DNA from: a virus
Reading direction: 5' to 3' (one strand)
IMG/VR virus record: IMGVR_UViG_3300044620_001324
Coordinates: 1-23,536 of that record
DNA: 23,536 nt
Both the position numbers and the translations under genes were made by a program. Below the pieces are notes generated by a model. The model saw only the letters and a list, made by a program, of their open reading frames with translations. It ran no database searches and was not told where the DNA came from. The number at the start of each line of letters is the position of its first letter. Position 1 is the stretch's first letter. Below are positions 2,490 to 23,536 of this stretch, piece by piece.

Positions 2490-3479
2490 TCAAGACAACG
2501 CGTCGAGCACGGTGCGGGCGGCGGCTTCCCATGTCCAGTTCGGAGCGGGAGTCATGTGTGGATAAAGCAGCGAGTGCATCATTGCGCCCTTCATCGCGTA
2601 TGTGATTTCCTCAGGCGTTTGCACCGCCCAATGGTTCTCATCCTTGGTCGCGTAGATGCGGTGAGTGATGGCCTCGCGCACGTCCGCATGGCCGGTCATT
2701 GCGTTCGCTACGATGCGCCGCCCGCACGATGCGTATTCTTGCAGCACAAGGTTATTGCCGCCTTCGCACCGATTCGGGAAAAGCCCGAAGTCGGTGTGCG
2801 CCATCTCGCGCGCGAGGGCCGCGTGACTGAGTTGCGGAAGGATGGTGAACTGCGAATCGGTGATGCCGTTGTTGCGCAACAGGCTGCGGAAAAACTCCGG
2901 CTGAGTTGCGCCGTGCGCCAGCGGGCTGATTACCTTAGTGTGCGCCATCGTCTTGAAAAGCGCAGGCCAAGGGTTGTGCCACGCGCAGACAAGGTGCGCC
3001 TCGGGATGCACCTTGGCGAACTCGCGGAAGGCGGCGATCACCAAGTCCTGCCCTTTGCGATACTCGAATTTGCCGCCGCTGAAAATGCGGATCGTGCCAT
3101 CGGGCGTGCGCGGCGGTTGCGGTTTGAAGATGTCGCCGTCAACTCCTTGGATGAGCACGCGCGTATTGAGGATGCCCGCCTCGATGCATCGCTGCTGGCA
3201 CCATGTCGAGCCGACGAAACACACGTCGAATTGCGCGGCGTTCTCTCGCGCGTCCGGTTCAAGCGGCGACTCGAAAAAGTTCATGCACACGTTGACCTTC
3301 CCTCGCGCTGGCGCGAGCGGGCGGAATGCGCCGTCAACCGGCATAAAGCACACGTCAATCGGGTCGTGGTTCGATGTCACCATGACGAAGTGCTTGTCGA
3401 GTTCGCGATACATGTTGGCGTTAAACACGCCCCATCCGTAGCCGGTGCCGGGAGTGCCTGCGAAGTGCATGGTTTTCAT
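2490..3479 (-). CDS. Glycosyltransferase, GT4-like (GT-B fold)
   Basis: A 329-residue protein with the C-terminal half of a GT-B retaining glycosyltransferase. It shows the FSGGKFEYRKGQDLVIAAF region (around residues 152-170), where GT4 enzymes start the nucleotide-sugar domain. Near residue 255 it has RCEGGNNLVLQEYASCG, the acidic loop contacting the donor sugar phosphate. The N-terminal half (GTPGTGYGWGVFN) would bind the acceptor. Donor and acceptor cannot be read from sequence. Its ATG overlaps the stop of the methyltransferase gene by four bases (ATGA), and the TPR-glycosyltransferase lies just upstream, so the three act as a cassette. Likely targets are a virion protein or a host surface glycan (inference). 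Confidence 0.85.
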   Translation of the reverse strand: MKTMHFAGTPGTGYGWGVFNANMYRELDKHFVMVTSNHDPIDVCFMPVDGAFRPLAPARGKVNVCMNFFESPLEPDARENAAQFDVCFVGSTWCQQRCIEAGILNTRVLIQGVDGDIFKPQPPRTPDGTIRIFSGGKFEYRKGQDLVIAAFREFAKVHPEAHLVCAWHNPWPALFKTMAHTKVISPLAHGATQPEFFRSLLRNNGITDSQFTILPQLSHAALAREMAHTDFGLFPNRCEGGNNLVLQEYASCGRRIVANAMTGHADVREAITHRIYATKDENHWAVQTPEEITYAMKGAMMHSLLYPHMTPAPNWTWEAAARTVLDALS

Positions 3480-4078: not shown

Positions 4079-5436
4079 AGCAATTCGCTGATTTGTTTGA
4101 TGACGCCTTGCCAGCCACCTTCACGCTCCTGGCGAAACAGGCGCATCGTCGGATACCATGGCGAGTCGCTGCGACCAAGCAGCCACCGCCAGTCAGGGGA
4201 GTGCGGTGTCAGCATCCAAACATTGCAGGACAGCGCGCCAGCGAGATGGGCAATGGCGGTGTCCACGGTAATGAGCAGGTCGAGTTGCTGGAGCGCCTGC
4301 GCGGTGTGAGTCCAGTCGCTTATAAGTGGCGCGAGATCCGTCACGTTGCGCAGCTTGGCTACCTCATCGGCGCGCGGGCCGCACTGGAGCGAGTAAAAAG
4401 AGCATTCAGGGTGCGCGTCCACGAGAGGCTGGAATAACTCTGGCTCGAAGCTCCTGAACTCGTCGCGACCGTGCCGAGGCGAGCCGGCCCAAACCAGCGC
4501 GACATTAAATGATCCAGCCTCAAGTTTCTCGTCGGATATGATACCAGCGCCGCCGGTCCTGATATACGGCACCGCGCTTGGTATTGACGCGAGCGTGGTG
4601 CCCATACGAAACGGAAGGCTCATGGTCGGGACGTGGTAATCATAGGCCATCTCGCTGGCATCCGTCACAAAAGCGTCCACGCCGTCGGCGGTAAGGATGA
4701 TATTTTTAAGCGCGGCGTCTCCTCGAAAAATAATACGGCAACCAGGCCACTGATTTTTAAGTTCCGCGCAGTAGCGGACCATCTGAAAAGTATCTCCGTA
4801 GCCCTGCTCCTGAGTGACGAGCAGCGTCTTACCGTCCAAACACTCGCCATTCCATGATGGAACATCCGTGATAAACAACTTCGCCGGGAAACTGTCCACA
4901 AAGTGCCTGCTTTCGTAGAGCCTGAATCCTTCCTCTAAGTCGCCAAGCAGCAGCTTGATCATCCCGCTGCTAAACTTCGCTCCGTGGCTCTCCGGGTCGA
5001 GATTCAACACGGCCTCAAACTCAGCATCCGCCGCGTCATACTTGCCCTCGTAGCGTAGCGCGTCGCCAAGATTTACGCGGGCAGCAGCGTTTGTCGGGTC
5101 AATCTGCGTGGCGAGGTTGAAGCAAATCGTCGCCTTCGCGTGGTGCCCGACCTTAAGCATCATCACGCCGAGGTTCGACATGGCGTGTGCCTTAGTGTCC
5201 ATCTCAACACCAGGGCACGTCAGCACCTTCTGGTAGCACTCCGCCGCTGCGTAGCGGTCCGACGGGTTGTCTGCCGTCGCCTGCAATGCCGCGCCGAGAT
5301 TAAACCACACGGCGGCGTCCAACGGGTCAAATTCAAGATGCTTACGCCAGAGCGGGATCGCTTCGGCCCACTTTTTGTCGCGCTGCAAGTCCTGCGCACG
5401 CTGGAGCGCTTCGATGTTAATGGTTCGTGCGGTCAT
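4075..5436 (-). CDS. TPR-repeat glycosyltransferase-like protein (GT9/GT41-like C-terminus)
   Basis: This 453-residue protein has three to four tetratricopeptide repeats in residues 1-160 (AAVWFNLGAAL, AHAMSNLGVMML, AAARVNLGDAL and neighbouring helices). A glycosyltransferase B-type module follows. The C-terminal part contains NVALVWAGSPRHGRDEFRSF, LLITVDTAIAHLAGAL (about residues 388-403) and PDWRWLLGRSDSPWYP, a set typical of TPR-linked heptosyltransferase-like enzymes. Such proteins often glycosylate protein targets, the TPR array binding the acceptor. The start is an ATG coupled to the upstream stop (ATGA), and the stop overlaps the methyltransferase start. The substrate cannot be told from sequence. 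Confidence 0.85.
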   Translation of the reverse strand: MTARTINIEALQRAQDLQRDKKWAEAIPLWRKHLEFDPLDAAVWFNLGAALQATADNPSDRYAAAECYQKVLTCPGVEMDTKAHAMSNLGVMMLKVGHHAKATICFNLATQIDPTNAAARVNLGDALRYEGKYDAADAEFEAVLNLDPESHGAKFSSGMIKLLLGDLEEGFRLYESRHFVDSFPAKLFITDVPSWNGECLDGKTLLVTQEQGYGDTFQMVRYCAELKNQWPGCRIIFRGDAALKNIILTADGVDAFVTDASEMAYDYHVPTMSLPFRMGTTLASIPSAVPYIRTGGAGIISDEKLEAGSFNVALVWAGSPRHGRDEFRSFEPELFQPLVDAHPECSFYSLQCGPRADEVAKLRNVTDLAPLISDWTHTAQALQQLDLLITVDTAIAHLAGALSCNVWMLTPHSPDWRWLLGRSDSPWYPTMRLFRQEREGGWQGVIKQISELL

Positions 5437-6091: not shown

Positions 6092-6490
6092 TTAGAAGCT
6101 GCCGACGCGGTTCTTGAGACCGACCATCACCGCCGAAGTCGTGAACGTCGCGGTGGTGCTGGTAGTCAGCGCCTTGAACTGCACGTAGCGCCGAACCGCC
6201 TTCGGATCGAGCGCGACCGTGGCGAGCGTGCTGGCCGCAGTGACGGCAGCGAACGTCGGTGTCGTGAGCGCCGTGAACGTGGTGTTGTCGGCGCTGTCGA
6301 GTAGCGAATAAGTGATCGTCGCGCCGCCGTCCGTGTTTGCACCGGCAGCGGAAAGAACGATCATCAGATTGCCGACGTAGCCGGTGAGGTCAACGCCAAC
6401 GCCGGTCTGCGTTCCAGCAGCCACGAGGACGTGTTTGTTGAGCAGCGTGGTGGCGGTGAGTGCGCCGTTGAGATCAGGATTGAGTGCCAT
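6092..6490 (-). CDS. Putative head decoration or structural protein (132 aa)
   Basis: The product starts MALNPDLNGALTATTLLNKH and is Thr/Ala/Val-rich with alternating polarity throughout, as in beta-sandwich virion proteins. The middle carries ATITYSLLDSADNTTFTAL (about residues 58-76), a stretch seen in jelly-roll-like capsid accessory proteins. There are no cysteines and no enzyme motif. It is the last gene of the head operon, two genes after the major capsid protein, where decoration proteins often lie. A terminator follows about 30 bp past its stop. Confidence 0.65.
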   Translation of the reverse strand: MALNPDLNGALTATTLLNKHVLVAAGTQTGVGVDLTGYVGNLMIVLSAAGANTDGGATITYSLLDSADNTTFTALTTPTFAAVTAASTLATVALDPKAVRRYVQFKALTTSTTATFTTSAVMVGLKNRVGSF

Positions 6491-6693: not shown

Positions 6694-8661
6694 TTAGTTG
6701 GTGGAGACGCAGAACGACTTCGCGTGACGGAGCGCGACGCTCGTGAGTTGCTGCATGACGATGCGAACCTGACCCTGGAGCGAGAGCGAGTAGGGATCAA
6801 CGATGATTTCCTGTCCTGCCCAGTCGCCGATGATGAGGTCGGCCCAGTTGCCGAAGAACACCGTGCCGGCGCTGGTGATTTGTAGCGTGGCGTCGGCGGG
6901 GTAGCCGTTCACCATACCGCCCTTCCAGACCGGGTTCGCGTTCGACGCGGAGATTTCAGCGGTTGCCTTTGTGCCGGCGCGGACGGTAGGAGTGGTGAGG
7001 TAGCCGAGGCTTCCCACATCCGCGTTGTTGTTCGCGACGTTCAACTCGAAGCGGAGAGCTTCGGCGTAGGTCATCGTGCCGGCGTTAGCCAGCGTGACGG
7101 AAGTGGAGAGGCCGGACGTGTTGTAGATGCCGAGCGGTTCGCCGGCACTACCTGCGCCGACGAGTGCGGCCTTATCCTTGGCGAGCGCCAGAACCTTCAT
7201 CAGATCCTCGCGGACGAAGTTCTCGATGTCGGGGTTGTCGGTCTGCGCGAGAAGCTGGAGCGTGAAGGCGGTGGCGGCACCGAGGCGCTGAGGCGTGAGC
7301 GCAACCTGCCCAACCGTCTGGTCGGTGGCCGTAATGGTGCCATTCTCCGGGAGCCAGTAAGCGGTCGCGCCGCCAGTCTGCGCCGGAATAGCGAGATTAC
7401 CGACGAGGCCAGAGAGGGTGCGGGCACCCATCTTCACGACCTTCATCTGGTTGCGGTAAAGCTCGATCATGCTCTGTCCCTGCGGGCCAGCCTGAACGAG
7501 CGCGCCGGCTCCGGTGAAGACGTTAGTGGAGAGCGCGCGGTGGGCCATCACATCGTTCGGCACAAAGAATCCGCCATTGGACTCGCGGCCAAGCTGCTTG
7601 GTGGTGGCGTCGTGCATCTCGCGCTCCAGACCTTCCCACTTCTTGCGGTTGAACTGGCCGAGGGCACCGTTCATCGCGCGGATGAGCGAATACTTGCTGA
7701 TGTCACGCTGACTCGCGCCGATGTCTGGCGAGGTCGTGATTGGCTTGAGTTCGGGAAGCTCGGAGCGCATCAACTCACCTTGGAAGTCCTCGACGCGCTT
7801 GCCTTCGGCGATCATCCGCGCAGAGATAGCGTGGATTGCGGACGGATCAACCTTGCGGCCAAACACACCCTTTTCGCAGATGTGCTTTTCAAGATCCTGC
7901 ACCTCGGCGATGCGCTTCCGCTCGACCTTGATGGCGTCCTCGCGCTCGGCGACGACATTGACTTTCGGGGTTTCGATGACGGGCGGTGCGGGAGTTTCTG
8001 GTGCCATATGTTTTGGTGTTGAAGTGTTTTTGGGTGCCGCAGTTTGTGCGGTGATGTGCTTTTGCGCTACGTTTGCGTTGCTGTCAATATCTTTTTGACG
8101 GGAAATGCTAATGCTGCGAAAAAGCATTCCAGCGGGCTTGTCGCCGCGCCCCACTCCGACAGTGATATCAGCGGGAACGGGTGCAAGGCTAGCCTCGTGC
8201 GGAGCCCACTTGAATTTGTAAATGGGGCAGCCATCTTTTGCGCCGATGCACTCTCCGTCATCGGTGATGCGATAGCCAACGCTCGTATTGCGTAGAGCGC
8301 CGCTTTTGGCGTCTGCTTGCATGTCCTTCGCAAACTGGCTTGATCCCCACTTGATTCCTCCGACGGTGATTTTTTTGCCATCGTTGGCATAGCTGGTAGC
8401 CGTCCCGAGCGGTTGGTTCGCATTGTGATTGAAAAGGATCGGCAACCCGGCCTTGAGGCGCGAATCGTCGCAGCCGCCAACTGCGTGATCAAGCACCTCG
8501 TAGTAGTCCTCGTCATTGGCGTAATCGTAACGCTTGTATGGCGTGTCGCTGGAAATGCTCATGGACATTTCGTCTCCGTCCGGCTCTCCGTCTGCGTGCG
8601 CGCGAACTTCGATTGTGGCGGAGCGGAAAAGCTGCTCGGGGATTTCGATTTGTTTTTTCAT
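6694..8661 (-). CDS. Prohead protease-major capsid protein fusion (HK97 type)
   Basis: One 655-residue polypeptide carries two head functions. Residues about 1-185 are a U35-type prohead serine protease: LPILFNHNANQPLG gives catalytic His79, GALRNTSVGY gives Ser127, and WAPHEASLAPVPAD follows as usual. Residues about 190-320 are Pro/Thr-rich then charged and helical (VERKRIAEVQDLEKHICEKG), the expected scaffold or delta domain. From about 355 the HK97-fold capsid begins (GGFFVPNDVMAHRAL, GATAYWLPENG, DKAALVGAGSAGEPLGIYN). The protease should cut off itself and the scaffold during maturation. In HK97 the protease and capsid are separate genes. The start is coupled to a 35-residue upstream gene (ATGA). 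Confidence 0.93.
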   Translation of the reverse strand: MKKQIEIPEQLFRSATIEVRAHADGEPDGDEMSMSISSDTPYKRYDYANDEDYYEVLDHAVGGCDDSRLKAGLPILFNHNANQPLGTATSYANDGKKITVGGIKWGSSQFAKDMQADAKSGALRNTSVGYRITDDGECIGAKDGCPIYKFKWAPHEASLAPVPADITVGVGRGDKPAGMLFRSISISRQKDIDSNANVAQKHITAQTAAPKNTSTPKHMAPETPAPPVIETPKVNVVAEREDAIKVERKRIAEVQDLEKHICEKGVFGRKVDPSAIHAISARMIAEGKRVEDFQGELMRSELPELKPITTSPDIGASQRDISKYSLIRAMNGALGQFNRKKWEGLEREMHDATTKQLGRESNGGFFVPNDVMAHRALSTNVFTGAGALVQAGPQGQSMIELYRNQMKVVKMGARTLSGLVGNLAIPAQTGGATAYWLPENGTITATDQTVGQVALTPQRLGAATAFTLQLLAQTDNPDIENFVREDLMKVLALAKDKAALVGAGSAGEPLGIYNTSGLSTSVTLANAGTMTYAEALRFELNVANNNADVGSLGYLTTPTVRAGTKATAEISASNANPVWKGGMVNGYPADATLQITSAGTVFFGNWADLIIGDWAGQEIIVDPYSLSLQGQVRIVMQQLTSVALRHAKSFCVSTN

Positions 8662-8765
8662 CGGATGAATAATTCTTGCGGGTCTCGTTGTTCGATCTGA
8701 ATTGACAGCGGCTTGCGCTGCTTTTTCTTTGGCTTCTTGGATGGGCCTGGTTTGGATTTGCTCAT
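8658..8765 (-). CDS. 35-residue basic peptide between portal and capsid genes
   Basis: A short frame, MSKSKPGPSKKPKKKQRKPL at its N-terminus, fits exactly between portal and capsid genes. Its ATG overlaps the portal stop (ATGA at 8762-8765) and its TGA overlaps the capsid start (ATGA at 8658-8661). Double coupling is strong evidence that it is translated. The first 20 residues carry about nine Lys/Arg, and the rest is acidic and hydrophobic (QIEQRDPQELFIR). The role is unknown; it could bind DNA or assist head assembly, or mainly carry ribosomes onto the capsid start. Confidence 0.6.
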   Translation of the reverse strand: MSKSKPGPSKKPKKKQRKPLSIQIEQRDPQELFIR

Positions 8766-10726
8766 GGGATAAGTTTCACACGCTTGGATTTTGTCATGTG
8801 ATTTTTCTTAACGGGGGCCGGAGGCTCAACCTCGTCCGGTTCGTCTGGAGGTTCGTGAGCTTCAAGCTTAGAGGTAATTGCGGTAATTTCGCTCTCGGTC
8901 ATCAGCGGGAATGCGGCGGAAATAAGCGCGGCGGCGGTGGCGATTCCGATCTCGCCGAGCGTCACTTTGTTGATGATGGAGAGAAGCCCTTCGATCTGTG
9001 CGCCGTTCAGTCCTGTGCCTTGGATGCTGGCGTTCTGAGCGGCTTCGGCTCCGTCTTCGCTGGACTGACCGAATAATCCTGCGTTCATCTCGACCGTCTT
9101 GCTCGTTGCGATACCGAACGCTTCCTTCATCATGTTGGCCTCGGCCTGCTCGAAAAGCATCGTCTCGAAGTCCACGCCGTATTGGTCGCATTCGTGCTGG
9201 TCGCTGCTGAAATGATTCGCGATGCGCAGCGCGGCGGCGGTCACTTCCTTCACCTCGTCAACCTGAGGCGTGCGCGGGCCTTGGAAGTGCGGGGCGTTGA
9301 ACTTGTCGAACTTCGCCAGCGGCAACGGAATTTGTCCGGTCATCAAAGCCATCTCAAGCCACGCCTCAAAAATTGGGATCTCGGCGTCGTCGATGTCAAA
9401 CCGCTGAATCATGTAGGTCATCGAATCCGTAGCGAGGCGCTGAAGTCTGCCGGCGCTGAAGTTGATCGCCTCGTAGTCGTTCGCTAATTCACTGTATGCG
9501 GCACCTGGCATTCCAGCTGCTTGCTCGCGCAGCATCGCCTTGCGGAAGTTTTCAAAGTTTCCATTCGGATGCTTCGGGTCCGACTCCGTGTATTCCACGC
9601 CCCAAGGCAGTCCGACGATGCTTCCCGGCGTGAGTTCCTGACGCGGGACACCAGTTCGAGGGTCAACGTCTGTCGGGACGCCACCCTCCGGGACGACGGT
9701 TGAGGATAGCCACCCAACCTTGCAAGCCTGCGCGCGGGCGGCGATGACCTCGGCGATGGCATACTGGCTGAGTTGCCGCGCAACAGGGATGCAGGACGCC
9801 ACCCACGGAGCGGGGCGCGTGCTCTCGGCATCAACCGGGCGCGCGTAGTGGACGATCTCGCTGGCGGGAATTTCGTCGTGCAGTGCGCCTCCGTAGAAGT
9901 TGAACGCTCCAGGGACGCTGAATTGCCAGTCCTTCGGTTGGCGTTTGATGAAAAAGTAGCTGACCGGCTCACCAAGTCCCCACGAGTTCATCTTGTAGCG
10001 GATGCCCATGCGGACTTCATCGCCGTTTGGCATCGTGTCGTTGTAGAAGCGATCTACCCACTCGGCGTTGATCAGCTGTAGCGAGAAACCAAATTTGTTG
10101 ACGTTCTTTCCGCGCACGAGACGGATGAAAAAGTCGCCGTCGCGGATGGCGCTCCAAAGGCGAAGTTGCCGGATCTGCGCGTAGGTGCGGGATTTTCGAA
10201 CGTCGCAGTATTCCGCGCGCTGCCATTCCTTCCACTTGGCCTCGATGAGTTGATTGGCGTAAATGTCAGGGTCGCCAACCTTGATCACTGTCTGTCGTGA
10301 ACCGTTCATTCCGAGATCACGAAGCAGCGCGAACGGCTTGTGTTCACGGCCCTCTTTTTCAGCCTGATAGCGAAGCACTCGATTGCGTCGATTTTCGTAG
10401 GCGCGCAGCGCGGCTTTCTCGTCTGGAGTGTAGATCACTCGGTCCTCGCGTTCCTTTGCCTTCATGCGTAGCATCGTTCCAGCCTCGCCGAACACGCTAC
10501 CCCAGATGAGTTCGCGATACCTGACAAACGTGGGATTCGATTGCGCAAGCGATCGGGTGCGCGACGTGAGCAAATATGCGTTCATCCACACAGCCGCATC
10601 CTCGGATTGCGCCACGTTCACCCAATCGGAATTGGTGCCGCCAAGCGCAACGGATTCGCGGTAGTTGCGCTGGCCTTCCGCGCCTTTTTTTCCAAACAAC
10701 CCTCGAATGTATTTGAACGGATTCAC
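8762..10726 (-). CDS. Portal protein, lambda gpB family
   Basis: This is a 654-residue portal of the lambda type, the dodecameric ring through which DNA enters and leaves the head. Seen: NAYLLTSRTRSLAQSNPTFV near the N-terminus, the long wing region (WSAIRDGDFFIRLV, PASEIVHYARPVDAESTRP), and GMPGAAYSELANDYEAINFS (about residues 410-430), a hallmark of the family. The C-terminus is Glu/Pro-rich then Lys-rich. I choose the GTG at 10726 (MNPFKYIRGLFGKK), because it overlaps the gpW-like gene stop as GTGA. A GTG at 10759 would add 11 residues. In lambda the protease gene follows the portal, but here an HK97-type fusion does. Confidence 0.93.
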   Translation of the reverse strand: MNPFKYIRGLFGKKGAEGQRNYRESVALGGTNSDWVNVAQSEDAAVWMNAYLLTSRTRSLAQSNPTFVRYRELIWGSVFGEAGTMLRMKAKEREDRVIYTPDEKAALRAYENRRNRVLRYQAEKEGREHKPFALLRDLGMNGSRQTVIKVGDPDIYANQLIEAKWKEWQRAEYCDVRKSRTYAQIRQLRLWSAIRDGDFFIRLVRGKNVNKFGFSLQLINAEWVDRFYNDTMPNGDEVRMGIRYKMNSWGLGEPVSYFFIKRQPKDWQFSVPGAFNFYGGALHDEIPASEIVHYARPVDAESTRPAPWVASCIPVARQLSQYAIAEVIAARAQACKVGWLSSTVVPEGGVPTDVDPRTGVPRQELTPGSIVGLPWGVEYTESDPKHPNGNFENFRKAMLREQAAGMPGAAYSELANDYEAINFSAGRLQRLATDSMTYMIQRFDIDDAEIPIFEAWLEMALMTGQIPLPLAKFDKFNAPHFQGPRTPQVDEVKEVTAAALRIANHFSSDQHECDQYGVDFETMLFEQAEANMMKEAFGIATSKTVEMNAGLFGQSSEDGAEAAQNASIQGTGLNGAQIEGLLSIINKVTLGEIGIATAAALISAAFPLMTESEITAITSKLEAHEPPDEPDEVEPPAPVKKNHMTKSKRVKLIP

Positions 10727-11322
10727 GACTGGTAAGGGTTGATGTAAGGAGCCGGCCACGCTGGCGGAAAGTAGGCATCAACGCGCCCCCCTGTTCGCTC
10801 GCCGCGCTGTGCCTTGAGTGCCTGCTGTTCGCGAATGACGGCGGCCTGATAATACACAAGCTGCTTCTGGTATTCAGACACCCCGGCGCGCTCAAACTTC
10901 TGGCCGTTGAAATCTACCACGCGCTTGTCAGTCGCGTTGAATGAAGCGAGAACGGTTTGCAGGAGAGTGACTTGCGCCTCAGAGAAACTTGGTGTGCGGG
11001 CCACTGAAAGATTCGGAAGAATCGTGATCAATCCCGTCTCCGCTGTAGTGCGCTGCGATGACGACGTGACGTAAATCGCATACTGATACTCGCCAGTGCC
11101 AGCCACCCCGAGGGCTGCCGTGGCAGCACTAGTGAGCGTGAAAAGGAAGTCATTACCGCTTGTGGTCGCGGCGGTGCTCGACGGCGTTCCCGTGCCCTTA
11201 ACGAGCACGAGCGCAGCCGTCCATGCGGAGTTTGGATACCCGGCGTAGCTCACCGTAAAGTGAACTTCGTTGCCAGCCTCGATGCTGACTGGAACGCCTT
11301 GCGTTGTCGTGACTGCGGCCAT
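10723..11322 (-). CDS. gpW-like head-tail joining protein with N-terminal beta domain
   Basis: The 199-residue product has two parts. Residues 1-110 (MAAVTTTQGVPVSIEAGNEV, then GYPNSAWTAALVLVKGTGT) form a beta-rich domain seen as a separate short protein near portal genes of other phages. Residues about 112-199 resemble lambda gpW: a helix, then KRVVDFNGQKFERAGVSEYQKQL, corresponding to the gpW beta-hairpin and second helix. gpW sits between terminase and portal in lambda, exactly as here, and closes the portal. The ATG at 11322 matches the usual domain start. A GTG at 11388 that overlaps the terminase stop is an alternative. The fold assignment is by eye. Confidence 0.75.
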   Translation of the reverse strand: MAAVTTTQGVPVSIEAGNEVHFTVSYAGYPNSAWTAALVLVKGTGTPSSTAATTSGNDFLFTLTSAATAALGVAGTGEYQYAIYVTSSSQRTTAETGLITILPNLSVARTPSFSEAQVTLLQTVLASFNATDKRVVDFNGQKFERAGVSEYQKQLVYYQAAVIREQQALKAQRGERTGGRVDAYFPPAWPAPYINPYQS

Positions 11323-11380
11323 TGTTGGCGCTGCGTATAACCGCACCGCGCCGGGGTTGCAAGCGTAAAACTGAGGGCGG

Positions 11381-13402
11381 TCACACACTCCATCCGCGAC
11401 CACCTCCGAACCCGCCACCCACGACGACCGCAGACGTGACAGGCGCAACCGGCTTCGGCGCAGCGCCTTCGTTCTTTGAGGCGCGCGCTTCCTCGGCAAG
11501 CTGACGCTCGATGGTGTCCCAGTCCCACCCGCCCATGTCCTTGTTGCGGCGGAAGGCGGCGAGGTTTCCCACAAGCAAATCAAGAGCCTCGTTTCGGTTT
11601 CCGTCCGGGTTTTTGAATGTCTCCACGTTTTTTCCGTTCACGATTTTCCAAACCGAAAACTCGCTGACGACCTGACGGATAAACTCGTCCGAGTAGCACT
11701 TTCCGAAATGAATGAAGCCAGGGAGTGATTTTTCCTTGCCGCTGTGCCAGCGCAGCCGCTCGTAAATCAGCGACTTTGCGCACCATGTTCCGATGATAAT
11801 TCCTTTCGCGTTTCCCTTCACGGTGCCCCACTTGTTATGCACGACGCTCTGCCACTGCGGAGCGCCTTTACTGATGCGGATTTTTCCAGATACCCCAGGG
11901 ACGTGCACGCGCTGCAATCGCTGGAGTGTCGCCAAAACCGGATCGACCCGCCACCCGCCGTCAACTGTAGCCATGTGAAGCTTGAGATTTGCGCCGCTTT
12001 CGTGCGGGAACGTCTTGCGGAGATGCTGCGTCCACTCATCCCAAACTTCCGTTCGGTTCGTGTCGCCAAACAAAACGTAGTGACCGCACCCCCAACTTTC
12101 CTCGTCGCGCGCCCACGCCCGCCATTCCACTTCGAGCCGGTCAGCGTGCAAGTCGGTCATGCTCGTAAGCACAAGCGCACGAGCAGGGAGAACTACCTTC
12201 TCGTGCGTGGCGTAGTCCTCGCGCCCGTCGAGAATTGGCTGGTATGCCGGCGGAGGGATTTTTTCCGAGTCTGGATTCCAAAGCTCGGCCCGCATTTCGT
12301 TCACCCATACCTTCTTCACCTCAGATGAAGCGGCCATCGCGGATTCGTTTTCGGAAAATAACTGATGAAGCTTGGTTTTGTACCCCTTGCCTTTTGGGAA
12401 AAGCGAGTTGGCTCCGTTGATCCAGTAGCCACGCACCCCGTTAAACGGTGCGGTGGGGAGCCATTGTCCGCCGTCCACCATGCGCCGCCACTGCTTCTCG
12501 TCGTGGTCGGAGTCGCAGGATTCGCAAAAGTAAAAATGCAGCGTGCCGCTTTTCTTTGTGACGGCTTTGATCTGCTCGAACTTGAGCCACTGCCCAACCC
12601 CGCACTTGCGACATGGGCAGAACCATTTTCGCTGGTCGCTGGAGTCATACCACTTTTCGATGTTGCTGCGGTAGATTTTCTTTCCGGTCTCGTCTATCTC
12701 GGCAGTGAATGTTCCGGTGCTCTCCACGATCTTGACGGCCTCGAAGCCCTCAGTGCGTCCAAACAGCTTGGCGATTGGGTCGCCCTCACCCTGACTGCTG
12801 ACGGGATAGGCGTCAACCTCGTGAGCCATGACGATCTTCGCCGCCATGCCGCGCGTCTTGCTCTTGCTGCCTGCGTTGATGATGTAGATGGAGCCGCCGT
12901 GGAACCGCTTGTATTCGATGGTGCGGCCAGTGTCCCGGCTGCGGCGCTCCACGAACACCCTAGTTAGCGCCGGGGTGGCTTCGATCATCGGCTCGATCAC
13001 GTCACGCGAAAAGCGGTCGCTGCTGTCCTCCACGGGCCACATGCTGATGATGTTGCCGGGGTCGTCTGTGACGGTGCGCCCGATGATATTGCCGCACACG
13101 CCCTCGGTCTTGCCGCTGCGCCTAGCCATCCACAGGACAATCGTGTTCACCGTCAAATCGTCGGCGGCGTCCATTGGCTCCACGCACCACGGCATGACGG
13201 CGTGCCGATACGGGATGTCCTCGCCGTGCGTCAACGGAGATTGGCCGGCTGCGATGCGCCTTTCTTCCACGGCCCACTCGCTCGGCTTGCGTTTTTCTCG
13301 GAGTTTCCAGCCTGACCATAGCGCGTAAAAGTCGCGCCGGGTCTGCTCACGTATCCGCCTGAACTCCGGGTGCTGGATCGGTTTTTTCGTCGTCTGGCTC
13401 AT
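11381..13402 (-). CDS. Terminase large subunit, GpA family
   Basis: The 673-residue DNA packaging motor and cos-cutting nuclease of the lambda gpA type. The N-terminal ATPase has a divergent Walker A, WMARRSGKTE (91-100), followed by SMWPVEDSSDRFSRDVIEPM and the Walker B-like AAKIVMAHEVDAY. A zinc-binding insert follows (CPCRKCG and CESCD near 275-320). The nuclease half contains LTSMTDLHADRLEVEWRAWA, equivalent to the first catalytic Asp strand, and FGDTNRTEVWDEW. The C-terminus is Gly-rich. GpA-type enzymes usually act at cos ends. The start overlaps the small subunit gene by 56 bp. Confidence 0.95.
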   Translation of the reverse strand: MSQTTKKPIQHPEFRRIREQTRRDFYALWSGWKLREKRKPSEWAVEERRIAAGQSPLTHGEDIPYRHAVMPWCVEPMDAADDLTVNTIVLWMARRSGKTEGVCGNIIGRTVTDDPGNIISMWPVEDSSDRFSRDVIEPMIEATPALTRVFVERRSRDTGRTIEYKRFHGGSIYIINAGSKSKTRGMAAKIVMAHEVDAYPVSSQGEGDPIAKLFGRTEGFEAVKIVESTGTFTAEIDETGKKIYRSNIEKWYDSSDQRKWFCPCRKCGVGQWLKFEQIKAVTKKSGTLHFYFCESCDSDHDEKQWRRMVDGGQWLPTAPFNGVRGYWINGANSLFPKGKGYKTKLHQLFSENESAMAASSEVKKVWVNEMRAELWNPDSEKIPPPAYQPILDGREDYATHEKVVLPARALVLTSMTDLHADRLEVEWRAWARDEESWGCGHYVLFGDTNRTEVWDEWTQHLRKTFPHESGANLKLHMATVDGGWRVDPVLATLQRLQRVHVPGVSGKIRISKGAPQWQSVVHNKWGTVKGNAKGIIIGTWCAKSLIYERLRWHSGKEKSLPGFIHFGKCYSDEFIRQVVSEFSVWKIVNGKNVETFKNPDGNRNEALDLLVGNLAAFRRNKDMGGWDWDTIERQLAEEARASKNEGAAPKPVAPVTSAVVVGGGFGGGRGWSV

Positions 13403-13814
13403 TCGTTTTCTCTGGCTTTAGGTCCGGCAGCTTCACACCGCGAAGCTCTGCCATGACGGATTCTTTCTGCGCCTTGCTCAAAGTTTTAAGTCTTGAGATT
13501 CTGCTGACTCCGTGCGCGATAGCGTCGGCGAAGTCGTTCAGATAGTCGTCCCGGTAGCAGAGCGTGCCGTCCATCTTTGCGCTTTCCATCTCGGCGATGT
13601 CGGCCTCGGCTTTGAGTTTGCGCGACTTGTCCTCCTTGGCGGTGACTGAGTGGCGGTCGCGCAGATGGCGGATGTAAAGCGTGTTGCACTTAATCGCCTG
13701 CCATACGGCGTTTTCCGGTTTCGGGATGACGCCCTGACGCGCGAGCACATAGAGGTGCTCGCGCGTCACGTCGAGAAGTTGGGCGGTGCGGTCGGCGTTC
13801 CAGAGTTCTGCCAT
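13347..13814 (-). CDS. Terminase small subunit, Nu1-like
   Basis: A 155-residue protein beginning MAELWNADRTAQLLDVTREH. Its first 55 residues form a winged-helix DNA-binding domain (RTAQLLDVTREHLYVLARQG), as in lambda Nu1, which recognises the cos region. The middle (KSRKLKAEADIAEMESAKMD) is a coiled helix that binds the large subunit, and the tail is Asp/Glu/Lys-rich. I choose the ATG at 13814, one base after the radical SAM stop, over an in-frame ATG at 13862 that would add a Ser/Arg-rich segment encoded inside the upstream gene. Confidence 0.88.
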   Translation of the reverse strand: MAELWNADRTAQLLDVTREHLYVLARQGVIPKPENAVWQAIKCNTLYIRHLRDRHSVTAKEDKSRKLKAEADIAEMESAKMDGTLCYRDDYLNDFADAIAHGVSRISRLKTLSKAQKESVMAELRGVKLPDLKPEKTNEPDDEKTDPAPGVQADT

Positions 13815-13815
13815 A

Positions 13816-14886
13816 TCAGAGAAGGATCGCGCCGATGTTCTCGCGGGCTTTCCACCACTCACGATTGCTGGCGTTCACGTATTGCAGGAACCGGAACTTG
13901 CCGGGAGCGTAGCCGGCATTTACGTGCGCCTCGAAGGTGGCGCGAGCGTATGCCTCCCACTTGGCTGAATCGCCGGAGACGGCCAGCAGTGCGTCGGCGT
14001 TGTCAGCGAACCCGCCACCCCGCAGCGCGTCCACCGTGCGCGTCATGGACTCCCCTCGGACGTTGATGACCTCCCCCCACACATGCTCGCACTTGTCGGG
14101 ACGGATGGCATCCCTCATCTCGCGGGCCATGCCGGAATAGTCGTCACCGGCCTGCGGCAGTGACGGGCACAACATGCCGTAGGTGCGACAGCCGGCGTCC
14201 TGGAGTTTATGGAGCGAGGCGATGCGTTTCGAGACAAGCGGCGTGCCGGCCTCGAACGCTTTAGCGAGAGGGTCGTTGAGCGTCCCTGTGGAAACGCCGT
14301 AGATGACCCGCAGGGCGGGTTTCAGCTTGCCGGCGACGGGATGGGCGTCGAGACCTTCGGCGACCTGTGGCAGCAACGTGGATTTCGATAGCAGCCGGAT
14401 GTCCCACCGCGTGAGTTGCAGGATGAGCGCGCACGCTTCCACGGTCTCGCGGACCAGTTCCATGTTCGCCGCCACGTCCACGGACGGGCTGGCGTAGATG
14501 ACTCGCCCCTGTTGCTCGGGGCCGTTAAACTTTGGCGAGCCGTTGCGGTCGGTGAGTTGCTGACGCATGATGCCGAGTGCGTTGAGCCGTCGCACCACGA
14601 TGTCCTCGTGAGCGCCATCGGCACCGTGCTGAGACAGCCAAGGCACCAGCTTGCGCATCATGTCGGGCACGTAGCAGAAGGAGCACGAATAGGCGCACGC
14701 CATGCCAGTGCTGAACGTGGGGCCGTCGCATAGCAGCTTGTGAGAAAAGCCGCTGTCGAAGTTGATCACGGTTTTCGATGGGACGCTGAAAACGGGCTTG
14801 CCGTTCATGGTTTCGCGGCCACCACGGGCGGGCGCGGGTTTCGCGGAACTGAAAAGCTCCGGCTGAGTGGTTGCGTTCTTAGTCAT
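13816..14886 (-). CDS. Radical SAM protein, spore photoproduct lyase/Rv2578c-like
   Basis: A 356-residue radical SAM enzyme. The CX3CX2C cluster that binds the 4Fe-4S iron-sulfur centre is ACAYSCSFCYVPDM, with Cys64, Cys68 and Cys71. The rest follows the SplB/Rv2578c pattern: VIYASPSVDVAANMELVRE, WDIRLLSKSTLL, VSTGTLNDPLAKAFEAGTPL, RIASLHKLQDAGCRTYG. Known relatives include the spore photoproduct lyase that repairs thymine dimers, but most members have no known reaction. The ATG at 14886 lies right after an A/C-rich leader (ACAACCACACAAACACAAA) inside the 3' end of the HTH gene. It is one base upstream of the terminase small subunit, an unusual place for such an enzyme. Confidence 0.85.
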   Translation of the reverse strand: MTKNATTQPELFSSAKPAPARGGRETMNGKPVFSVPSKTVINFDSGFSHKLLCDGPTFSTGMACAYSCSFCYVPDMMRKLVPWLSQHGADGAHEDIVVRRLNALGIMRQQLTDRNGSPKFNGPEQQGRVIYASPSVDVAANMELVRETVEACALILQLTRWDIRLLSKSTLLPQVAEGLDAHPVAGKLKPALRVIYGVSTGTLNDPLAKAFEAGTPLVSKRIASLHKLQDAGCRTYGMLCPSLPQAGDDYSGMAREMRDAIRPDKCEHVWGEVINVRGESMTRTVDALRGGGFADNADALLAVSGDSAKWEAYARATFEAHVNAGYAPGKFRFLQYVNASNREWWKARENIGAILL

Positions 14887-15151
14887 TTTGTGTTTGTGTG
14901 GTTGTGCCGCCCCCTGTTGAAGCAGGTGTGCCCGTCTGGGTTTTGTCATTCTCCCGCCGGGCCGGGCGGCTTTTCTTTACGGGCTGAATGATGATTTGCA
15001 GGAGCGCGCGGAGCGCGAGCCCCCTCGGAGTGTTGCGACCGCATTCCCAATTCTGAAGCGTGTCGATAGGCACCCCGATGCGGAGCGCTGCTTCGGCCTG
15101 CGTGAACTTGTGGATCGCGCGGTAGGTTTTCAGGTCGGAAATAAGGTTCAT
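14879..15151 (-). CDS. XRE-family HTH regulator, first gene of the late operon
   Basis: The 90-residue product starts MNLISDLKTYRAIHKFTQAE. A helix-turn-helix occupies residues 16-40 (FTQAEAALRIGVPIDTLQNW and CGRNTPRG), as in small XRE-type regulators. The C-terminal tail is low complexity (STGGGTTTQTQND); its codons double as the A/C-rich leader of the next gene. I choose the ATG at 15151 rather than the longer frame from 15292, because a palindromic operator ends three bases before it. Binding there would make the gene autoregulated. It heads the packaging and head operon and is the best candidate to bind the same palindrome at two other promoters. Confidence 0.82.
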   Translation of the reverse strand: MNLISDLKTYRAIHKFTQAEAALRIGVPIDTLQNWECGRNTPRGLALRALLQIIIQPVKKSRPARRENDKTQTGTPASTGGGTTTQTQND

Positions 15152-15154
15152 GGT

Positions 15155-15192
15155 TACGCGGGAAGCGTAGCCGTTTTTCGGGTGTGACGCAA
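15155..15192 (-). promoter_or_regulatory. Operator (third copy) and possible promoter of the HTH gene
   Basis: The palindrome TACGCGGGAAGCGTA (15155-15169, plus strand) ends three bases before the HTH start codon. Its perfect 5-bp arms and Gly/Ala spacing match the two other operators, in inverted orientation. A weak -35 TTGCGT (15192-15187) and -10 TACGCT (15169-15164) with a 17-bp spacer would put the operator over the -10. The hexamers are poor, so the promoter is less sure than the operator. Confidence 0.55.
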
Positions 15193-17210: not shown

Positions 17211-17237
17211 GGTTTGTCGGGTTGTTTGGGTTGTGTG

Positions 17238-17426
17238 TTAGGGGCTGATCCTGTCCGCCGTTGCGCGGGCTTGCTCGGCGCGGATTCTGTCAATCTCGCG
17301 GCGGCGGCGGTTCGTCGTGCGCACGAATGCGCCCCGGCGGGACAGTTCGCGCCGGGCTTCGGCGAACGTGGTGCCGTTGCGCTGCGCGAGGGTGATGGTC
17401 AATGCGTTCAGATCGTGGGATTTTAT
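17238..17426 (-). CDS. Small basic protein, possible ATA start codon
   Basis: The frame ends with TAA at 17238 and encodes a convincing small Arg-rich protein (ITLAQRNGTTFAEARRELSR in its first half, helical throughout). There is no in-frame ATG or GTG at its beginning. A leader of A and C only (AAACCCAAAACCAAACCC) comes straight after the RadC stop and runs directly into ATA at 17426, which would give 62 residues starting (M)KSHDLNAL. Other genes here place ATG exactly at that spot. A TTG at 17402 (54 residues) is the conventional alternative. Function unknown. Confidence 0.55.
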   Translation of the reverse strand: MKSHDLNALTITLAQRNGTTFAEARRELSRRGAFVRTTNRRRREIDRIRAEQARATADRISP

Positions 17427-17448
17427 GGGTTTGGTTTTGGGTTTCTGG

Positions 17449-18677: not shown

Positions 18678-18704
18678 GGTCGTGTTTTGGTTTGGGTTTT
18701 CTGT

Positions 18705-18893
18705 TCAGAGGATTTCGTGAAGCTCGACGCGGAAGCGCAGGCCACCCACCACGAGAACGGTCTCGCCGGTCTCGCCGTCCTGCCGGACGCTGTGAATGCT
18801 GAACTCTTCGCGCGCATCCATCAGCGCGGAGTAAATGATGGACTGCACTTCGCAGGCGGCGGAATTTTCGGACGGTTTTCTGTGGATTGTCGT
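18705..18893 (-). CDS. Small protein with possible ACG start codon
   Basis: A frame ending with TGA at 18705 encodes a plausible small alpha-beta protein (VQSIIYSALMDAREEF, then ETVLVVGGLRFRVELHEIL). No ATG begins it. Right after the TAA of the upstream gene a leader of AACCCAAACCCAAACC type leads into ACG at 18893, which would give 62 residues beginning (M)TIHRKPSENSA after an additional Thr. Its distance from the leader matches the ATG of other genes. The conventional alternative is a GTG at 18848 (47 residues), leaving about 45 bases of unused coding-like sequence. Function unknown. Confidence 0.55.
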   Translation of the reverse strand, partial: TTIHRKPSENSAACEVQSIIYSALMDAREEFSIHSVRQDGETGETVLVVGGLRFRVELHEIL

Positions 18894-18927
18894 GGCTGGT
18901 TTTCTGGTTTGGGTTTGGGTTGAAAGC

Positions 18928-21306: not shown

Positions 21307-21897
21307 TTACGACGAAAGATTTTTTTCGTCAGGGGTGCGTATCGGCTCCAGACGGATGCCGAAATATCGCGCGTGTCCACCGGGATTCAGCGCCTCGGCG
21401 CACTCCACCACTTTGAACTTTCGGAGCGCCACCCCCAGCAGCGCCCCTGTCGCGAAATCGTGCAGGTGTCCGCCGAGGCTCTGCGGCATGTCGTGCGTGA
21501 ATGCGATTCCGAGCGCCCCTTTGGCGGCCCCGCTCAATCCACCACCGCCGCCCATCTGGATAAGGCCCACGGTCAGAAACACCGTCACCGCGTGATCGCA
21601 CGTCGAGAGAAGCGCGAGCCAGTGCGCCCACGGCGAGCCGTAGGCGTCAAGGTCAACCACGTCCTGACCCCACCCCGGCTGCGCCAGGATGCGCTCGCTG
21701 TCGATCTTGATGCGGCCCTTCGCCGGCTTCACGTCCACGCCCCAATACTTCACCGCGTAGTCTTTCCGCAAGCGGCCCCACACCTCGCCGGACCCCATGA
21801 AGCAATCGAGCACGCTGCGCGCTGGATAGCGATTCAAGAAGCGCCTGCGCAAGTCGAGCTTGGCAAAGATATTATGATTATCAGTTTTGGTTTTCAT
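21307..21897 (-). CDS. Methyltransferase-like protein following the ParB-domain gene
   Basis: A 196-residue protein with a class I methyltransferase-like start. RSVLDCFMGSGEVWGRL (about 27-43) is motif I and YWGVDVKPAKGRIKIDSERI is the following strand and acidic loop. VDLDAYGSPWAHW (81-93) occupies the place of motif IV but lacks the NPPY/DPPY that amino-DNA methylases need, so the substrate is unclear; RNA, or loss of catalysis, are possible. Later it has AVTVFLTVGLIQMGGGGGL. Its ATG overlaps the end of the ParB-like gene by 17 bases. ParB-like and methylase domains are often fused in phages, and here they are split. Confidence 0.75.
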   Translation of the reverse strand: MKTKTDNHNIFAKLDLRRRFLNRYPARSVLDCFMGSGEVWGRLRKDYAVKYWGVDVKPAKGRIKIDSERILAQPGWGQDVVDLDAYGSPWAHWLALLSTCDHAVTVFLTVGLIQMGGGGGLSGAAKGALGIAFTHDMPQSLGGHLHDFATGALLGVALRKFKVVECAEALNPGGHARYFGIRLEPIRTPDEKNLSS

Positions 21898-22528
21898 CGG
21901 CTCCGAAGTCGCTGATCGTTGTCTCTACCATCGTTCCTGTGATTTTTGCGATAGCCTCCACTGATTCGTTAATCTCGCCAAAGCGCACGAGCGGGATTCC
22001 GATGAGCACCCACGCCATTTTCGGAGGCTCCTGCACAGCCACCTCCTTGATGTCTGTCTCTGGTGCCGTCGCGGTCATCAGTTCTTCCAGAGCCTCGCCG
22101 TCGAACCCTGTCAGGTCCATGTCGAACGCCCCGGTGTCCATCTGCTCGGCAAGGTCTTTCAGCATCGCGCGATCCGCGTCGGCGAGTTCGGCTAGCCGGT
22201 TGTCGGCGACAAGGTGCGCAAGCTCATCTTCGTCGCTGGCAAAGTCTTGCTCGTCCACTGGAACCTGAGACGCGCCAAGCAGCCTCGCCGCTTCGAGCCT
22301 GCCGTGGCCGGCGACCACGAGGCCGCTGCGCTTCGAGACGGTGATCGGCGCACGCCACCCCTGATGCTTGATGACCTTTGCCAGCAACGCAATCTGTTTT
22401 TCGCTGTGCTTATTCGGGTTGCGCGGATTCGGACGAAGCGAGACGAGATCCGCCATGCGCAAGTGCGCGCAGTGGACCGGGATGCCGGATGTTTCAGCGG
22501 ATACCCTGCCAAGTGTTTTGAGTTTCAT
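21881..22528 (-). CDS. ParB/Srx-like N-terminal domain protein
   Basis: A 215-residue protein. Residues about 20-120 are a ParB-like domain: LRPNPRNPNKHSEKQIALLA, HQGWRAPITVSKRSGLVVAG, then GHGR (74-77), LLGASQVPVDEQDF and HLVADNRLAELAD. Such domains have been linked to CTPase or nuclease activity and often precede phage methylases. No ParA gene is visible, so this is not an obvious partition system. I start at the ATG at 22528, because the promoter's -10 lies seven bases upstream. ATGs at 22540 and 22537 overlap that -10, and a GTG at 22705 would read through the tandem repeat. The C-terminus (residues 150-215) is not recognised. Confidence 0.85.
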   Translation of the reverse strand: MKLKTLGRVSAETSGIPVHCAHLRMADLVSLRPNPRNPNKHSEKQIALLAKVIKHQGWRAPITVSKRSGLVVAGHGRLEAARLLGASQVPVDEQDFASDEDELAHLVADNRLAELADADRAMLKDLAEQMDTGAFDMDLTGFDGEALEELMTATAPETDIKEVAVQEPPKMAWVLIGIPLVRFGEINESVEAIAKITGTMVETTISDFGADENQN

Positions 22529-22535
22529 TCGGTGC

Positions 22536-22563
22536 ATCATAAACGAATCGCCAGCAAGGTCAA
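22536..22563 (-). promoter_or_regulatory. Strong promoter for the ParB-like operon, leaderless
   Basis: On the minus strand, -35 TTGACC (22563-22558), 16-bp spacer and -10 TATGAT (22541-22536), each five of six to consensus, are followed by seven bases and the ATG at 22528. No Shine-Dalgarno is present and there is no room for one. The mRNA would begin at or just before the start codon. Confidence 0.75.
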
Positions 22564-22614
22564 GAAATACGCAACACGCGCAGCCACCCCGTGCGCGAAG
22601 CACCCACGGGCGGG

Positions 22615-22662
22615 CCGTCCACCCCTGTAGCCACCCCTGTAGCCACCCCTGTAGCCACCCCG
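22615..22662. repeat. Left block of 12-bp tandem repeats
   Basis: It starts CCGTCCACCCCTGTA and continues with GCCACC at 22630, 22642 and 22654, a period of 12 bp with unit GCCACCCCTGTA. The last unit breaks off as GCCACCCCGGG. The CCGTCCACC head is also seen at three other places in the window (15229, 16831, 18622). Confidence 0.9.
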
Positions 22663-22780
22663 GGCTCGGCAGGCACCGCGTTGTAATGTGCTGTTTTTTT
22701 AGCACTATCTGCGCGGGGTGGGGAATTCGGAACCTAGGTAGAGGAAAAACACCGGGGAGAACCTATGGCCACCCCCCTTA

Positions 22781-22884
22781 CCTGTAGCCACCCCTGTAGC
22801 CACCCCTGTAGCCACCCCTGTAAGCCACCCCTGTAAGCCACCCCTGTAGCCACCCCTGTAGCCACCCCTGTAGCCACCCACCAC
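22781..22884. repeat. Right block of 12/13-bp tandem repeats
   Basis: Eight GCCACC units start at 22787, 22799, 22811, 22824, 22837, 22849, 22861 and 22873. Six spacings are 12 bp and two are near 13 bp, because an extra A gives CTGTAAGCC. The unit is GCCACCCCTGTA. An isolated unit, GCCACCCCCC, starts at 22768. The repeat is nearly perfect, so recent expansion is likely. Confidence 0.92.
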
Positions 22885-22910
22885 GGGAGGTCGTAGCCGC
22901 CTCGTAAAGA

Positions 22911-22992
22911 AGCCACCCCTGATTTACGCACAAGCCACCACGTCGCAATTACGACAGCCACCACGGTAGTTTTTTATCAGCCACCACGGACA
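22911..22992. repeat. Iteron-like AGCCACC elements with 22-23 bp spacing
   Basis: AGCCACC begins at 22911, 22933, 22956 and 22979 (spacings 22, 23, 23). The last three share AGCCACCACG and are followed by AT-rich bases (GTAGTTTTTTATC, GACATTTATTC). A spacing of about two helical turns places the sites on one face of the DNA, as in replication or partition iterons. A degenerate GCCGCC at 22896 may be another unit. Confidence 0.75.
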
Positions 22993-22993
22993 T

Positions 22994-23170
22994 TTATTCA
23001 GCCTGAGGATGCCGCACGGAATCGCCGACTGCCACCGCCTCCCTGCGCGCCTTCATCACCGCCCTGCCCTTGGCAGCGTTGGCCTGCCTCGCGGTGATGC
23101 TGGCAGGCGTGAGCGTCTTGGGCTTGCCCTTGGCTTTGCGGCCAAGAGCTACGGCGTGCGGGTCTTTCAT
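22994..23170 (-). CDS. Small basic protein (58 aa)
   Basis: A 58-residue Lys/Arg/Ala-rich protein starting MKDPHAVALGRKAKGKPKTL. The segment ALGRKAKGKPKTL through ARQANAAKGRAVMKARR resembles the ALGSIKS...AARRNG motif of the 84-residue protein at 5735-5989. Such basic helical stretches are common in mobile-element proteins and suggest nucleic-acid binding, but the function is not known. Its own promoter lies directly upstream. Its stop borders the iteron-like repeats, so a product that binds there is worth considering. Confidence 0.65.
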   Translation of the reverse strand: MKDPHAVALGRKAKGKPKTLTPASITARQANAAKGRAVMKARREAVAVGDSVRHPQAE

Positions 23171-23177
23171 GGGTGAT

Positions 23178-23206
23178 ACGCTAGAGCGGTTGCGTGCGCG
23201 TGTCAA
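23178..23206 (-). promoter_or_regulatory. Promoter of the 58-residue gene
   Basis: A perfect -35 TTGACA (23206-23201), 17-bp spacer and a weak -10 TAGCGT (23183-23178) end seven bases before the ATG at 23170, the same leaderless layout as other operon heads. GCGTAT at the -10 resembles half of the palindromic operator, but the other half is missing. Confidence 0.6.
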
Positions 23207-23411
23207 GCGCGGCCAATGCCGCGCGCGTATTGCTCCACGTGCTCGGCGTGCTCCTGCGCGTAGCCGGGGCAGCGTTTGAGTAGCCACAAGTGGCAGGCGA
23301 GGCGGATGTCATGCAGGTCTCGCCGTGTCGTTTGCTGGATACGGCGTCGCGCTCCTTCCAGCGGCTGCGGTAGTTGAGGTGGGTGTTTGCGCTATGGGTG
23401 CGGTTTCTCAT
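23181..23411 (-). CDS. Uncertain small gene with an apparent frame switch
   Basis: An ATG at 23411 follows an A/C-rich leader (CCCCACCCCAAA) after the previous stop and opens a 76-codon frame (MRNRTHSANTHLNYRSRWKE). In the first half this frame has C/G-rich third positions, as expected for a real gene. In the second half the frame shifted by one looks more like protein (RRDLHDIRLACHLWLLKRC, then EHAEHVEQYARGIGRA) and ends at the TGA within TTGACA. A frameshift near 23310-23340, a sequencing error or two overlapping frames would explain this. No family recognised. Confidence 0.35.
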   Translation of the reverse strand: MRNRTHSANTHLNYRSRWKERDAVSSKRHGETCMTSASPATCGYSNAAPATRRSTPSTWSNTRAALAALDTRTQPL

Positions 23412-23423
23412 TTTGGGGTGGGG

Positions 23424-23536
23424 CTAGCGGTTGAGTGTGCGGAGAAAGGCTTCGGCGCGTTGGGCGGCGGTGGCGAAAAACGCAGCGGTGATTGCAGTCA
23501 TCGGCCCCGCTTCTGGATTGTGGTCGCGGCGAACGA
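23424..23536 (-). CDS. C-terminal end of a gene running off the right edge
   Basis: An open frame enters from the right edge and ends with TAG at 23424. The visible part reads VRRDHNPEAGPMTAITAAFF and ends in AQRAEAFLRTLNR. An internal ATG at codon 13 could also start a 25-residue peptide. It is too short to identify. Its stop is followed by a 12-base A/C-only leader and the next ATG, in the style of the internal genes here. Confidence 0.45.
   Translation of the reverse strand, partial: VRRDHNPEAGPMTAITAAFFATAAQRAEAFLRTLNR

Follow-up and report, generated by a model that had tools for sequence, protein, structure and literature searches.

Short direct repeats are concentrated in a gene-free stretch of a viral DNA fragment, between the gene for a ParB-N-domain protein and that for a small basic protein, and their arrangement raises the question of whether the locus serves replication, partition, or packaging and regulation, the options named in the first-pass annotation. 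The window analysed here (23,536 nucleotides) is the whole IMG/VR fragment and encodes large and small terminase, portal, capsid and head-tail proteins, with all main genes on the minus strand. The large terminase, TerL (11381..13402, minus strand), belongs to the lambda gpA-like family (phrog_15, E 2e-126) and is 80-81% identical to the proteins of five relatives found through it, L041-L045. The small terminase, TerS (13347..13862, minus strand), matches phrog_57 (E 7e-7), and its putative recognition helix, TREHLYVLAR, is the same in the window and L041-L044. Capsid relatives were located in two Verrucomicrobiota metagenome-assembled genomes (MAGs), one of which, carrying the Spartobacteria prophage L040, also has the large terminase in common (67-69%); a verrucomicrobium is therefore the probable host. 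The region 6694-13402 is a mosaic head module, in which portal and capsid are 78-86% like those of L015 and TerL is 80% like that of L042 and only 32% like that of L015. Between TerS and an HTH gene (14879-15160), a large ORF (13816-14949) matches Radical SAM weakly, with an E value of 0.008 that falls below the cut-off.

The repeats themselves are real and far beyond chance. TRF reports two tandem arrays of the same 12-bp unit on the minus strand, one of 3.6 copies with 100% match (22619..22661) and one of 8.1 copies with 97% match (22781..22879), the unit of the latter being GGTGGCTACAGG with two adjacent copies 13 bp long. These are followed by four spaced minus-strand elements (22911..22985) with the core GTGGTGGCT/GGGGTGGCT every 22-23 bp and unrelated spacers; their AGCCACC cores start at 22911, 22933, 22956 and 22979 (intervals of 22, 23 and 23 bp), and TRF finds a weaker 23-bp periodicity at 22955-23003. 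Read on the minus strand the elements are GGTGGCT, a word that occurs 16 times in 22529-23036; in 1000 dinucleotide shuffles it averages 0.2 occurrences and never exceeds 3. Self-match at lag 12 is 44/60 in the block and at most 32 in shuffles. Both repeat blocks and the four AGCCACC elements of the first-pass annotation are thus borne out, while other parts of that description need adjustment. The span 22615-22992 does hold the repeats, but GGTGGC elements reach further, to 22588 and 23036 on the minus strand; the setting described as AT-rich is only mildly so (GC 0.49 at 22901-23000 versus 0.60 overall); and the supposedly only long gene-free stretch is the longest internal one (465 bp in the gene list used here), accompanied by gaps of 250 bp (18678-18927) and 238 bp (17211-17448). 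Across the whole window GGTGGC is distributed 54 versus 13 by strand, a bias that is mostly coding, the minus strand being the one that carries all main genes. Since the 9-bp cores of the spaced units are 94% identical and their spacers 24%, the random level, in a set of four units, the spaced elements appear to be selected protein-binding sites.

The repeat was sought elsewhere. None of the 388 Verrucomicrobiota genomes sampled contains the 12-bp dimer, the 24-mer has no occurrence in viral contigs, and the spaced pattern was matched, in 4 of 195, only by other tandem arrays that by sequence look protein-coding. Three matches to the 18-mer (L012-L014) fall within reading frames or have a coding appearance. 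On these results a host-wide or mobile repeat was rejected. A known RNA (no Rfam match at the gathering score) and a hairpin structure (the strand folds worse than shuffles, z +3.0) were likewise rejected, and a short, limited literature search found nothing on such an array. In L042, intergenic arrays of GGCNN pentamers (GGCACGGCGAGGCAAGGC...) at 5207-5301 and 6194-6271 flank genes just downstream of TerL.

Comparison with relatives identifies the segment at about 22670-22766, between the two tandem blocks, as the packaging site, a feature overlooked in the first reading. L042 and L044, from two metagenomes other than that of L043, have GGTTCCG as their very first bases, with the ParB-like gene 62 bp further on; the capsid relatives L017 and L018, from two further metagenomes, likewise start exactly at this word. 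GGTTCCG stands at 6 of 22 contig ends, for which the chance probability is ~1e-20 on its local density, a value that is only indicative as the contigs are related. The 39,542-bp contig G407 carries an identical 10 bp at both ends, ATGCGGAACC (complementary to GGTTCCGCAT), a pattern suggestive of cohesive ends of 10 nt; 10 bp is shorter than expected of an assembler overlap and would match the remnant of filled-in 5' cohesive ends, of which we infer the polarity. By homology to these GGTTCCG ends and to GGTTCCGCAT, the putative cosN of the window is GGTTCCGAAT (22725..22734, minus strand, first base 22734), which sits between both tandem arrays in the segment alignable with the relatives. As the window contig crosses the site, its putative cohesive ends are placed by homology to relatives. 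The two-fold symmetry usual for cosN in lambda-like phages is, by eye, weak in the window and G407, while flanking GGCA/TGCC are symmetric in L043. On this placement the arrays at 22619..22661 and 22781..22879 lie on the left- and right-terminus sides of cos, respectively. The ParB-like gene (21881..22528, minus strand; 75% identical in L042-L044) is the first after cos, and the gene for the 58-aa basic protein (22994..23170, minus strand; 93% identical over 46 aa in L043) is the last before it, at the right genome terminus.

Further putative signals of a lambda-type site are found in the expected register. In the lambda record (J02459), the cosQ word GGGTCCT stands 30 nt before the left cohesive end; the window has AGGTTCT (22758..22764, minus strand), which matches it at only 5/7 positions, 30 nt upstream of the inferred cut, followed by CCGGTG in lambda's register. 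G407 has ACGGGTCCT in the cosQ register, 9/9 identical to lambda, and L043 has AGGTTCT at -31. In the L040 prophage AGGTTCT is followed 32 nt later by the cos-like AATTCCGTAGTGCC, just upstream of the small terminase. In lambda-like phages cosQ is needed for packaging termination, and cosN and cosB for initiation (PMC4669245). On the other side of the cut, four phages (the window, L042, L043 and L044) have RTTACAA at exactly bp 48-54, counted from the left end; in the window this is ATTACAA (22681..22687, minus strand), a candidate first TerS site equivalent to R3, the critical TerS site of lambda and N15 at about bp 48-65 (PMC9026076). Adjoining it in the conserved cos-proximal segment is an imperfect palindrome around an A-tract, GTGCTAAAAAAACAGCAC (22688..22705, minus strand), for which an alignment of the window with L042, L043 and L044 gives GCGCAAAAAAC in the relatives. 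Cos sites of the lambda type have an IHF bending site between TerS sites. The ends of relatives, the cosQ-like word and the terminal repeat of G407 support the packaging option raised initially, with the qualification that they do so for the core between the blocks, and the locus very probably contains a cos site of the lambda type. In a Verrucomicrobiota genome, GGGTCCTTCCGG (L088:810) resembles the lambda cosQ region upstream of a 36% identical TerL and is a possible further cos.

The likeness to the cosQ-cosN-cosB arrangement of lambda thus includes the cosQ-like word 30 nt from the cut, the candidate TerS site at bp 48-54 and the terminase genes downstream of the left end (PMC4669245, PMC9026076), here a lambda-family TerL (phrog_15) and an HTH-type TerS (phrog_57). 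TerS lies ~9 kb from cos in the window and ~1.5-1.8 kb in L042-L044; the segment between it and the ParB-like gene, ~8 kb in the window versus ~1 kb in the relatives, looks different in each of L042, L043 and L044 and resembles a variable slot adjoining cos. In contrast to lambda, whose ends are 12-nt, those of the window group are apparently 10-nt (from one relative), the cohesive sequence differs, and the R sequences of lambda were not recognized by eye in the window. Also unlike lambda, the window has cos flanked on either side by a long array of direct repeats, mostly upstream of the cut. In total 17-18 GGTGGC copies, all in one orientation, span -302 to -39 and +76 to +147 relative to the inferred cut, with those of the left array at +76, +88 and +100 and one more at +147 (22588). 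The left array overlaps the interval of lambda's further TerS sites, a positional resemblance only. The R sites of lambda and N15 resemble R3, whereas the array unit has no clear likeness to the conserved ATTACAA segment.

The array was seen in the window phage and in none of the relatives, over the stretches compared. L043, the closest, is 99.2% identical to 23036-23536 over 501 bp (L043:10-510) and departs from the window at 23035, inside the first GGTGGC element. It keeps the cos core, the small gene, the ParB-like gene (75%) and a small terminase whose putative recognition helix is that of the window phage, and there are no repeats between its small gene and its ParB-like gene, on either side of cos. 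The contrast between 99.2% identity at 23036-23536 and only 75% in the ParB-like gene points to a recent exchange whose breakpoint, at 23035, is near cos. For a small ORF (23181-23411), the L015 homologue (3188-3380) is matched in two different frames, and compared with L015 the copies in the window and L043 look frameshifted. No array is present within comparable distances of cos in L043, L040 or G407, on the left side of cos in L042 and L044 (the sole side visible in both), beside the 65% identical ParB relatives L008 and L009, or in the ~1.5 kb of flank covered beside the host-genome ParB relatives L089-L092. Because L042-L044 share the putative TerS helix while L043 lacks the array on both sides, and L042 and L044 on the left, terminase in this group does not need the array, and binding of it by TerS is not required. 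A relative that keeps the flanking genes without the block had been named beforehand as evidence against the initial interpretation, and L043 is such a relative at the sequence level. The flanking ParB-like and small proteins, proposed as binders in the first-pass annotation, are therefore not obligatory ones: both, like TerS, are encoded by L043, so none of the three requires the array there. Binding of the array by any of them in the window phage would still be compatible with this comparison, since phages of one packaging specificity can differ in the number of cos binding sites, as N15 and Monarch do (PMC4669245). The window and L043 may differ in site number much as the complex cosB of lambda does from the simple cosB of N15.

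Taken together, the block is probably a lambda-type phage cos region with an accessory, lineage-specific array of protein-binding sites. Comparison of genomes shows the site, its position, the array and the array's absence from the closest relative; on this basis we infer how the region would work. The terminase of the window phage would cut concatemers at GGTTCCGAAT (22725-22734), generating ~10-nt cohesive ends, with AGGTTCT (22758-22764) serving as cosQ and bp 30-60 (22675-22705, including ATTACAA at bp 48-54) as the likely contact and anchoring site of the small terminase. This ordinary core would be ringed by the 17-18 same-orientation GGTGGC(T) elements (-302 to +147), of which the spaced ones may be bound cooperatively by a phage or host protein, and the bound array would, as a set of accessory cosB-like sites, aid packaging or organize the genome ends. 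It is slightly more likely than not that the array functions as protein-binding sites; that it assists packaging or end organization is a tentative proposal. It is unlikely, although conceivable, that a dedicated protein coats the 17-18 sites flanking the cut, organizing or protecting both ends or excluding packaging parasites, which would make this a new kind of cos region; the coated array would then be a layer on top of the lambda-type signal.

The main rival accepts the cos core as functional and regards the 12-bp arrays as neutral, a G-rich minisatellite prone to slippage that grew where no coding constraint applies. The exact 12-bp copies and the two adjacent 13-bp variants do resemble recent slippage, the cos regions of L043, L040 and G407 lack the array, and the repeat dimer is missing from the sampled Verrucomicrobiota genomes. 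Against this, the same 12-bp unit occurs on both sides of the core, and 94% identity of cores versus 24% of spacers is hard to obtain by neutral decay, an argument limited by there being only four units. This reading retains a modest chance of being correct. It is quite unlikely that the repeats serve as iterons for a phage replication initiator, at an origin that happens to adjoin cos. Like plasmid and phage iteron arrays, they have directly repeated cores at a regular spacing of about two helical turns, diverged spacers and an AT-richer stretch (GC 0.49); unlike such arrays, they straddle the packaging cut, an odd position for an origin, no initiator gene was recognized beside them in the fragment, which does not include the right part of the genome, and they are lacking in L043, which has the same flanking genes. 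The GC skew profile of the fragment was uninformative.

A partition centromere (parS/parC-like) for the ParB-like protein, the second option of the initial note, is unsupported and highly improbable. The gene adjoins the block, and the two sets of direct repeats of 11-12 bp, one on each side of a central segment, recall plasmid parC arrays. However, the protein matches the ParB N-terminal domain only, below the Pfam cut-off, with no match to an HTH domain; its best phage family is annotated as DNA methyltransferase; no ParA gene was noted in the fragment; and the 75%-identical gene of L043 has no repeats beside it. Equally improbable are Chi-like sites near the phage end, steering the host RecBCD/AddAB nuclease. 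The G-rich elements all point to the right end, as Chi must in Escherichia coli to act from an end on that side, and phages and Chi sites are reportedly treated in a published paper; nevertheless, GGTGGCT and the array octamers are not over-represented (z ~ -1.6 to 0.7) in 299 kb of a Spartobacteria MAG that carries a related prophage, although the true host may differ, and the word was rejected as a Chi candidate in that host. Finally, it is very unlikely that translation from a GTG at 22705 through the left array gives the ParB-like protein a (GWLQ)n extension at its N-terminus: the reading frame of ORF 21881-22705 does run uninterrupted across the array, but the extension would start inside the conserved cos segment, and relatives start at ATGAAACC, similar to the window's ATGAAACT at 22528.

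The familiar part of this region is a probable cos site of the lambda type, and the new part is the dense flanking array, not found in the closest relatives. The cos core offers a packaging site that can be put to the test in uncultured phages probably infecting Verrucomicrobiota, and suggests that lambda and distant phages of this group have the cosQ word and its 30-nt spacing in common. The window phage and L043 form a natural pair with and without a large cos repeat array, which allows the role of extra sites in a packaging signal to be asked.
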